Positions 36,742 to 43,747 of a stretch of 64,000 nucleotides of DNA are shown piece after piece (within the stretch, counting starts at the first letter, position 1; every line of letters begins with the position of its first letter). The notes under the pieces were generated by a model. That model searched no databases, had not been told where the DNA came from, and was given only the letters and a program-made list of their open reading frames with translations. Source of the stretch: Pseudomonadota bacterium (GTDB lineage: Bacteria; Pseudomonadota; Alphaproteobacteria; Rhodospirillales; Magnetospirillaceae); contig JAJZUL010000009.1 in NCBI GenBank assembly GCA_021848545.1, forward strand, positions 1-64,000, given 5' to 3'. Both the position numbers and the translations under genes were made by a program.

Positions 36742-36772
36742 GGTTTCCTCCTTCATGTATGCCCTCAATGGG

Positions 36773-36834
36773 CGCAAGAGCGGCGTGCCTCGTATTTAAG
36801 GCACGCCGCTCTTGCGATGAGCAAAGCTCATCGC
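36773..36834. terminator. Two stacked perfect hairpins
   Basis: An 18-bp perfect stem (36773-36790 with 36799-36816) around an 8-nt loop is followed by a 9-bp perfect stem (36814-36822 with 36826-36834) around AAA, the two sharing three bases. They lie between two minus-strand genes and probably end the DUF1491 transcript. Confidence 0.7.
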
Positions 36835-39864: not shown

Positions 39865-39928
39865 GACGACCGGCGGCGGGATGGTCACGGGGCCGTTCAG
39901 GCGGTGATCGGGGATGAGGACGACAGCG

Positions 39929-40693
39929 ATGAGCGGCCAGCGCAAGATGTTCACGGCGGAACTCCAGCGCATGAAATCGGGCACGGGCAAGGCGAATGCC
40001 GCGTCCGCTCCGGCCGCGGCGACCCCCGACAACGCCGAGGTCATGCGCGCGCTGAACGACCTCAAGGCCGAATTGCGGGCCCTGACCAGCTACGTCAAAG
40101 GCGAGGACGACGTCACCGCGCCGGCCGAGAATGAAGCCGTTCACGAAAATCTGGCCCGTCAGCAGAAGGCGGAAGTGTCCATGCTCAAGACCGAGCTGAG
40201 GGCGCTGGCCGTTTGCATCGAACAGACGAAAAGCGAAATCGCCGCGCTGCGACCGGCGGAAACCCAGGATGACCGCCTGATCATCGTCGCGTCCGAGTTG
40301 GACGCCATCGTCAGCGCCACCGAACAGGCGACCCAGAACATCCTGGAAGCGGCGGAAAAGATCGAGACCCTGACCCGGGAAATCCAGTCCCAGGGGGTGG
40401 ACGCCTATGTGTCGCGCTTGGCCGAGGATATCAATGAAACCATCATCGGTATCTTCGAGGCCTGCAATTTCCAGGACATTACCGGCCAACGCATCACCAA
40501 AGTGGTTCGCACCCTCAAATATATCGAGGACCGCGTCAACGCCATGATCGAGATCTGGGGGGCCGAGAGCTTCCCCGACCTGAAGCACGGGGGCGACGAG
40601 GACGCCAAGGACGAGGACGCCAAGCTGCTGAACGGTCCCCAGCTCGAAAACGAAGGCATCAGCCAGGACGAGATCGACCGTCTGTTCGGTTGA
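39929..40693 (+). CDS. cheZ: CheZ, chemotaxis CheY-P phosphatase
   Basis: 254 residues. A long helical hairpin carries the catalytic-region motif ACNFQDITGQRI (about residues 182-193), with Asp and Gln as in known CheZ. The C-terminal peptide SQDEIDRLFG is the CheY-binding tail. CheZ takes phosphate off CheY-P to reset motor switching. The middle (residues 30-110) is a coiled coil. GAGGA precedes ATG 39929 at about 9 nt. Confidence 0.93.
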   Translation: MSGQRKMFTAELQRMKSGTGKANAASAPAAATPDNAEVMRALNDLKAELRALTSYVKGEDDVTAPAENEAVHENLARQQKAEVSMLKTELRALAVCIEQTKSEIAALRPAETQDDRLIIVASELDAIVSATEQATQNILEAAEKIETLTREIQSQGVDAYVSRLAEDINETIIGIFEACNFQDITGQRITKVVRTLKYIEDRVNAMIEIWGAESFPDLKHGGDEDAKDEDAKLLNGPQLENEGISQDEIDRLFG

Positions 40694-40964: not shown

Positions 40965-41675
40965 ATGCGAAATGGGATGGCTAAATTCAATTGGATCGAA
41001 ACGGCGATTCGGGGAACCGCCGCCGGTCTGGGGATTCTGGGACTGGCGATCGGGTTGAGCGCCGCGGCGCCCGCGGCCATGGCCGCCGGGCCTGCCGCCG
41101 ACACCGGCATTCACGCCGGCGACGTCATGGTCGGCGCCCGGTTTCTGGCCGCGCTTCCCCAGGTGTCCAGCACGGTGGACAATATCGGCGGCAGCATCGC
41201 GCTGACCAATGAATACGTTCCCGAACTTTACGCCACCTATTTCTTCACCCCCCATATCGGCGTGAACGCCATCGCCGGCATGGCCCGCTTCGGCGCCACC
41301 GACAAGGGATCGGCGGCCGGCGACGTCTCCCTGGGATCGGTCTATCTGATTCCGGCGACCATCACCGCCCAGTATCACATTCTTCCCAAGGGTCCGTTCG
41401 ATCCCTATGTCGGCGCCGGCGGCAGCTACTTTATGTTCTTCGACGCCCAGCCCGCGTCGTCGCCGGTGCTCAACACCAAATATGACAACGCCTTCGGTTA
41501 CGCCTTCGAAATCGGCGCCAACTACCGGATCGCCCATCGCTGGTACGCCAACGTGGACGCCACCAAGGTCATGGTCCACACCGTCTCCAATGTCGACAGC
41601 ACCGCCGGCCATGTCCACGCCAACGTCAGCCTGGACCCCTGGCTGGTTGGCGTCGGCGTCGCCTACCGCTTCTGA
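40965..41675 (+). CDS. OmpW-family outer-membrane protein
   Basis: 236 residues. Signal peptide about 1-41 (long n-region, cleavage near AAMA-AG), then an eight-stranded barrel with GDVMVGARF, LYATYFFTPHIGVNAIAG and PYVGAGGSYFMFF, ending in AYRF. OmpW proteins form narrow hydrophobic channels. GAGGG is 9 nt before ATG 40965. An FNR-like box lies upstream and a hairpin follows the stop. Confidence 0.92.
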   Translation: MRNGMAKFNWIETAIRGTAAGLGILGLAIGLSAAAPAAMAAGPAADTGIHAGDVMVGARFLAALPQVSSTVDNIGGSIALTNEYVPELYATYFFTPHIGVNAIAGMARFGATDKGSAAGDVSLGSVYLIPATITAQYHILPKGPFDPYVGAGGSYFMFFDAQPASSPVLNTKYDNAFGYAFEIGANYRIAHRWYANVDATKVMVHTVSNVDSTAGHVHANVSLDPWLVGVGVAYRF

Positions 41676-41688
41676 TCGAGAGCCGGAT

Positions 41689-41727
41689 GCGATCAGGTTG
41701 AATCGCTTGCGCGTTCGACCTGATCGC
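41689..41727 (+). terminator. Hairpin after the OmpW-like gene
   Basis: GCGATCAGGT (41689-41698) pairs with ACCTGATCGC (41718-41727), extending inward with one mismatch. There is no T-tract, so it may be a 3' stability hairpin rather than an intrinsic terminator. Confidence 0.5.
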
Positions 41728-41752
41728 TGACTCCGCTTTCAATTCAACACCC

Positions 41753-41880
41753 CCGCACAGGCACGGGGGCGCGGCGGAAGGTCGGATACCGCGACGGCAG
41801 TGGCATGCGGCATCCGTCCGACTTGTGAGTGCTCCTCCTCGAACTCCCATTCACAGCGCCGCGCCCCTTTGCCTGTGCGG
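41753..41880 (+). other. Three-way-junction structured element upstream of the receiver pair
   Basis: A 24-bp stem (41753-41776 with 41857-41880, one mismatch and one G-U) encloses two further hairpins: 41781-41786 with 41817-41822 (plus an inner CCGC/GCGG), and 41824-41831 with 41848-41855. The layout is that of a folded RNA of about 128 nt or of a short element with terminal inverted repeats. It ends 113 bp before the response-regulator start, in the otherwise gene-free gap 41676-41993. I do not recognise it as a known riboswitch or RNA. Confidence 0.65.
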
Positions 41881-41993
41881 CGGGTTGTTACGAAACGCGT
41901 TCCTTCCACCCCCTTGCGGGACTTGCGGCATTTGTCGCAAAGATGCATCATATCGAGACGCTGCTCCCTGGACTCAGACCGAGTGGGGGCGCA

Positions 41994-42458
41994 ATGGAAC
42001 GCAACGGACTCCGGGTACTGGTCGTCGAAGACGACCCTTATTCACGTCGTCTTATCGTGCGTATGCTGCGCAACGTCGGCATCACCGAGATCGACGAAGC
42101 CGGTGACGGATGTACGGCGATCGAGCTGTACGCCAAAGATTGGCCGCATGTGGTCGTCTGCGACGTCGATATGCAGCCGATGGGCGGCATCGAATTTTTC
42201 GAAATCCTGCTGAACGAACGCCAGTCCCTGGGCCGGGTGGCACCGGTCATTTTTCTGACCTCGCACGCCGAATCCGACATCATCGCCCAGGTCCGCCGCA
42301 TGGGGGCCGCGAGCTATCTGCTCAAACCGGCTTCGGCGGCGGCGCTGGCCAAACGCATCGACCTCGCTCTGGCCAGCCAGGGCGATCCCTATTCCGGCAC
42401 GCCCCTGGCCTGGGGGACGCGCCGCGCCGCCCAGAGCAATAATTCGCGGGTGATGTGA
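41994..42458 (+). CDS. Single-domain response regulator (CheY-like receiver)
   Basis: 154 residues. Complete receiver: acidic pocket Asp13-Asp14, phosphoacceptor Asp57 (VVVCDVDM), switch Thr in FLTS and Lys in LLKPA. A 30-residue tail has no recognisable output domain. It may act on the flagellar motor or in a phosphorelay. GGGGG precedes ATG 41994 at 5 nt, which favours this start over the longer upstream frame that runs through the structured element. Confidence 0.9.
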   Translation: MERNGLRVLVVEDDPYSRRLIVRMLRNVGITEIDEAGDGCTAIELYAKDWPHVVVCDVDMQPMGGIEFFEILLNERQSLGRVAPVIFLTSHAESDIIAQVRRMGAASYLLKPASAAALAKRIDLALASQGDPYSGTPLAWGTRRAAQSNNSRVM

Positions 42459-42460
42459 CG

Positions 42461-43306
42461 ATGCCCCACAACCTGTCCAAGACGCGGGTCCTAGTTGCGG
42501 AAAACGGAATTATCGTCGGCAAAAGCGTGGTCGGCGCCCTCGATGCCTTTGGCTTCACCGACATCGAGCGGGTGGGGACCGCGGCCGAGGCGCGCGCGCG
42601 CCTGACCGGGCGTCGCGTCGATCTGGTGGCGCTGAATGCCGATTTCGACGGCGGCGCCGGCGCCGATCTGGTCCGCGCCATCCGCAACTGCGAACTGCAC
42701 GCCGACCCGTTTCCGGTCATCCTGATGATCGTAACCCGTCCCGACGAAGCCCGGATCAAAGCGGCCCTGCATAGCGGCGCCGACGATATCGTCGTGGTCC
42801 CGTTCACGCGGGAATCGTTCCATGAGCGCATGGCCCTCTATCTGGAAGACCGCAAACCGTTCATCGTCACCCACGATTATATCGGTCCCGACCGCCGCGC
42901 CGCGCCGCGCCCCGGCGAAGCCAGCGCGGCGCACCACATGGTCCCCAACCCGGTCCGCAGCCGCGCCGTCGGCCAGAGCGAGGAACGGTACGCCGCCGCC
43001 GCCCAGGCCGCCCACCGCAAACTGACCGCCGCGCGGACATCCAGCCTGGCCAAGGCGGTGCAATGGGAGATCCGGGCCATCCAGGCCGCGGTCAATAGCA
43101 GCGTGCCGGACTCCCAACTCGCGCTCCGGGTCGCCCGTCTGGACCAGTTCGCCGAAGAGATGATCGATTGTTCCGAAGGCGACTCCACCCAGGTCCGCGG
43201 CTTTCAGGCGGCGCTGATCCCCTATCGCCGGCGCCCGGAACAACTGGGACCGGCCGAGGTCGCCGCCCTGATGATGCAAGCCCAGGCGGCTTTCGCCGCG
43301 CCTTGA
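42461..43306 (+). CDS. Pseudo-receiver protein with helical C-terminal domain
   Basis: 281 residues. Residues 8-125 have the receiver fold pattern, but the phosphoacceptor is Asn59 (VALNADF), the acidic pair is Glu14-Asn15, and the Lys position is Val (VVVPF), so it cannot work as a normal phosphorylated receiver. Residues 140-281 are a separate, mostly helical region that begins with YIGPDRRAAPR and is not recognised further. It starts 2 bp after the stop of the active receiver, so the two are very likely made together. GTG 42455 is another possible start. Confidence 0.8.
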   Translation: MPHNLSKTRVLVAENGIIVGKSVVGALDAFGFTDIERVGTAAEARARLTGRRVDLVALNADFDGGAGADLVRAIRNCELHADPFPVILMIVTRPDEARIKAALHSGADDIVVVPFTRESFHERMALYLEDRKPFIVTHDYIGPDRRAAPRPGEASAAHHMVPNPVRSRAVGQSEERYAAAAQAAHRKLTAARTSSLAKAVQWEIRAIQAAVNSSVPDSQLALRVARLDQFAEEMIDCSEGDSTQVRGFQAALIPYRRRPEQLGPAEVAALMMQAQAAFAAP

Positions 43307-43340: not shown

Positions 43341-43733
<393 letters not shown>

Positions 43734-43747
43734 CGCTTTATTTATAA

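Follow-up and report, generated by a model that had tools for sequence, protein, structure and literature searches.

A 64,000-nt stretch of DNA (the window) carries, at positions 41753-41880 between an ompW gene and a receiver gene, a palindromic structure that is real and beyond chance. We read this element as an orphan palindromic insertion or remnant, of the MITE-like or insertion-sequence-remnant type, a tentative interpretation to which we assign a probability of roughly 45%. It has palindromic anatomy, occurs as a single copy and abuts a dispersed repeat; dedicated signal sensing or target pairing by the element is not indicated. The features of the locus are collected in Table 1.

Table 1. 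Features of the ompW-receiver locus, in window coordinates.
Feature	Position	Strand	Basis
OmpW family outer-membrane protein, upstream gene	40965..41675	+	PF03922, 3.2e-36
Left arm and linker of dispersed two-hairpin repeat, right arm missing here	41676..41749	+	genome matches
5' arm of closing stem / left inverted repeat	41750..41776	+	fold, arm matching
Hairpin A (internal helix 2)	41780..41819	+	fold; pair probabilities mostly 0.9-1.0
Hairpin B (internal helix 3), 16-nt loop CUCCUCCUCGAACUCC	41823..41856	+	fold
3' arm of closing stem / right inverted repeat	41857..41883	+	fold, arm matching
Stand-alone receiver, phosphorylation residues intact, downstream gene	41994..42458	+	alignment
Second receiver-like protein with substitutions of the phospho-acceptor Asp and the Lys	42461..43306	+	alignment

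A previous sequence-only reading of this DNA had proposed three helices in one compact fold, and this was borne out. The plus-strand MFE of 41753-41880 was -79.4 kcal/mol (z -6.83); 200 shuffled versions had a mean of -52.9 and none was as stable. The centroid was identical to the MFE structure. The fold is a three-way junction, in which a closing stem surrounds two hairpins, with pair probabilities of about 1 across nearly all pairs. The closing stem, earlier put at 24 bp, is present but consists of 23 pairs with one mismatch: 11 pairs between 41753-41763 and 41870-41880, a C/T mismatch, and 12 pairs between 41765-41776 and 41857-41868, to which two more outer pairs are added with a probability of about 0.6. 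The two inverted arms are complementary at 24 of 27 positions; when the whole 64-kb window was Markov-shuffled 10 times, the best arms reached 21 of 27. The element is 128 to 134 bp long and non-coding, with no supported gene within, and is predicted to form an independent folding domain within the whole intergenic transcript. In a GC-corrected fold scan of the window it ranked 4th on the plus strand and 3rd on the minus strand. The strongest plus-strand fold in that scan was the region 36770-36832, a gap that holds two adjacent hairpins (AAGAGCGGCGTGCC... and GCGATGAGC...).

The fold had been assigned to the plus strand, where it is indeed real, but the minus strand is equally stable (-78.7, z -7.1) and gives no pointer to a plus-strand RNA. 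Because both strands fold equally well and each fold contains 4 G-U pairs, which makes strand bias uninformative, the fold alone shows neither whether it represents an RNA or a DNA palindrome nor which strand is concerned.

The gap had also been described as otherwise empty, which proved incorrect, as a dispersed, REP-like repeat occupies the segment between ompW and the element. In addition to about 10 further places in its own genome, this repeat had at least 11 matches in a relative (G004); among the 60 genomes searched it was present in its own and in two family relatives, and a sample of 141 other class genomes gave no match to a complete copy. Complete copies are organized as CTAGAGC-hairpin-linker-hairpin-GCTCTAG over about 135 nt and contain GANTC-type sites. 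Compared by layout alone, they, and not the element, resemble CIR repeats (two arms plus linker, GANTC; PMC2229807), which are described as conserved among alphaproteobacteria (PMC2229807). The start of the element coincides with the end of the repeat's left arm and linker at 41749. The element is not the second arm of this two-hairpin repeat, since the normal right arm has no sequence similarity to it.

The element occurs only once in its own genome (99.75% complete). A pattern search of that genome that required the inner segment to come after one end, a weak check whose gap range was unsuited to the element, returned only one unrelated place, and no insertion sequence or other locus carrying its ends was found. 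DNA searches yielded no relatives in 54 other genomes of the family and no credible match in phages, plasmids or viral contigs. In 317 order and 385 class genomes they gave only short partial matches (E 1e-2 to 1e-5), stretches of 19-38 nt without a matching second arm that were judged to be of chance quality. A covariance model made from the single sequence and run with strict filters, which a weak homologue may escape, found nothing credible in the 54 other family genomes; its one weak match, in G075 (E 0.37), resembles coding sequence and was attributed to chance. Searches of Rfam on both strands, with gathering and lax thresholds (E up to 10), returned only chance microRNA families, in agreement with the initial view that no known RNA family is recognizable. 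A divergent 6S RNA was rejected, as there was no 6S covariance match and the 6S RNA of this genome sits on another contig (C40).

The sequence-only reading had proposed looking for further genome copies and for covariance-model homologues, and had held that absence from all relatives would weaken both a regulator and a mobile element. The lack of copies counts against an active repeat, the lack of homologues, and with it of covariation and conserved placement, lends a regulator no support, and by that rule both options are weakened. As the genome sets searched contain no other species of the element's genus, absence in relatives is weak evidence against a regulator.

Several observations support an insertion, namely, the long terminal inverted repeats with equal folding of both strands and the coincidence of the element's start with the end of the dispersed half-repeat; the lack of conservation in relatives was counted on the same side. 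Among the characteristics of MITEs, the element has terminal inverted repeats (24/27), is non-coding and is shorter than about 200 bp. Neither further copies nor a related transposable element sharing its ends was found, none of the plausible boundaries tried showed a direct repeat of at least 3 nt, and there is no TA at its ends. Because copy number and target-site duplication were checked and not found as in a MITE, we do not file it as one. These negative results argue against an insertion, as does its GC richness, most described MITEs being AT-rich (PMC2229807). Mobile bacterial palindromes of less than 200 bp with structured transcripts have been described (PMC2229807), and for one MITE family some genomes are reported to contain as few as 1 copy (PMC10969869). 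The element resembles the bacterial MITEs with paired ends, ERIC, Correia/NEMIS and RUP (PMC2229807), in being intergenic and about 100-200 bp long, with inverted ends and a single large stem in the RNA, but it differs from them in being single copy and GC-rich, without target-site duplication or TA ends. The likeness is one of anatomy, with no sequence relation established.

Another palindrome of the window, at 258-405, served as a benchmark. It is 148 bp long, folds at z -13 and has 27-nt arms that match at 24 of 27 positions. The genome holds at least 20 more full copies of it, at 94-98% identity, and a few relatives have partial matches. Given its copy number and similar build, this genome carries MITE-like palindromes of the element's size. 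The element is alike in size and arm quality but differs from that family by the high copy number of the latter (at least 21), and no shared sequence was seen, so that the comparison does not establish membership. A short hairpin at 1237-1290 resembles both ends of the 258-405 palindrome joined. Of the three options put forward originally, a cis-regulator, a free small RNA or an element with terminal inverted repeats, the last gains some indirect support from the abutting dispersed repeat and from the multi-copy palindrome of the same anatomy.

Under the orphan-insertion reading, a palindrome of about 128-134 bp with 27-nt imperfect terminal inverted repeats would have come to be set against the REP-like repeat in the ompW-receiver gap, having arrived as, or been derived from, a mobile element. 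Its effect would probably be solely passive. Read-through from ompW or from a receiver promoter would produce a very stable RNA hairpin, which could alter mRNA decay or processing nearby, as reported for ERIC and NEMIS elements.

The single copy, the lack of a target duplication and arms that run imperfectly into the flanks would also fit a functionless, non-mobile palindrome of local origin, generated for instance when a short segment was duplicated in inverted orientation. We consider this unlikely; such an origin would leave the two internal hairpins, which are distinct from the arms, to be explained in another way.

The element has the same orientation as the receiver gene and, as first noted, ends at 41880, 113 nt ahead of the receiver start at 41994. 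Alignments read by eye showed that the receiver keeps the acidic pair, acceptor Asp, Thr and Lys, and that the second protein carries Asn in place of the acceptor Asp and lacks the conserved Lys, which is consistent with the active/inactive receiver pair originally proposed. A class A RNase P RNA lies at 43341-43737, between the pair and mraZ, and a CheZ-family protein is encoded at 39914-40693, upstream of ompW. The nearest receiver homologues, about 45-52% identical, have other surroundings, with neither the second protein nor rnpB close by, and the pair is not syntenic or kept together in the relatives examined.

Position and orientation, together with a very stable and well-defined three-way junction that folds as an independent domain of the intergenic transcript, are compatible with a cis-regulatory RNA that is specific to this lineage, forms part of the 5' leader of the receiver pair and would act through its structure on transcription or translation. 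This appears improbable, however, given the absence of homologues and hence of covariation, the equal stability of the reverse strand and the absence of the element at close receiver homologues in relatives. In addition, the gap has no terminator, U-tract or promoter match: a search of 41500-42200 found no promoter-like site, and the sole terminator-like site, at 42178, is inside the receiver gene. Loop-to-RBS pairing as a cis switch was rejected, as the C-rich loop pairs with the receiver RBS no better than shuffled loops, 73% of which pair at least equally well.

Alphaproteobacterial sRNAs with anti-Shine-Dalgarno loops exist, e.g., the cuckoo RNAs, and the stable fold with its exposed, pyrimidine-rich 16-nt loop could represent a free small RNA of this kind, acting through a C-rich anti-Shine-Dalgarno-like sequence (CUCCUCCUC). 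The C-rich unpaired loop is shared with cuckoo-type sRNAs, from which the element differs by its layout, lack of an Rfam match and single orphan locus. A free small RNA is quite doubtful in view of the Rfam result, the lack of conservation and of promoter-like and terminator-like sites in the gap, and the pairing of the loop with the neighboring receiver, which is unremarkable among the start regions of the window. An integron attC site was dismissed because the left flank fits RYYYAAC with a motif that belongs to the repeat linker and the right side has no GTTRRRY partner, and a retron, considered for the paired ends, appears unlikely, as the neighboring genes read include no reverse transcriptase.

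If the element is an orphan palindrome, it would add one more case of an intergenic repeat, of little wider consequence. That the element is a new structured RNA confined to its genus, built as a three-way junction and either controlling the receiver pair or working in trans via its C-rich loop, is a very doubtful prospect; were a transcript and genus-level conservation to be demonstrated, the locus would provide a new structured RNA beside a receiver pair.
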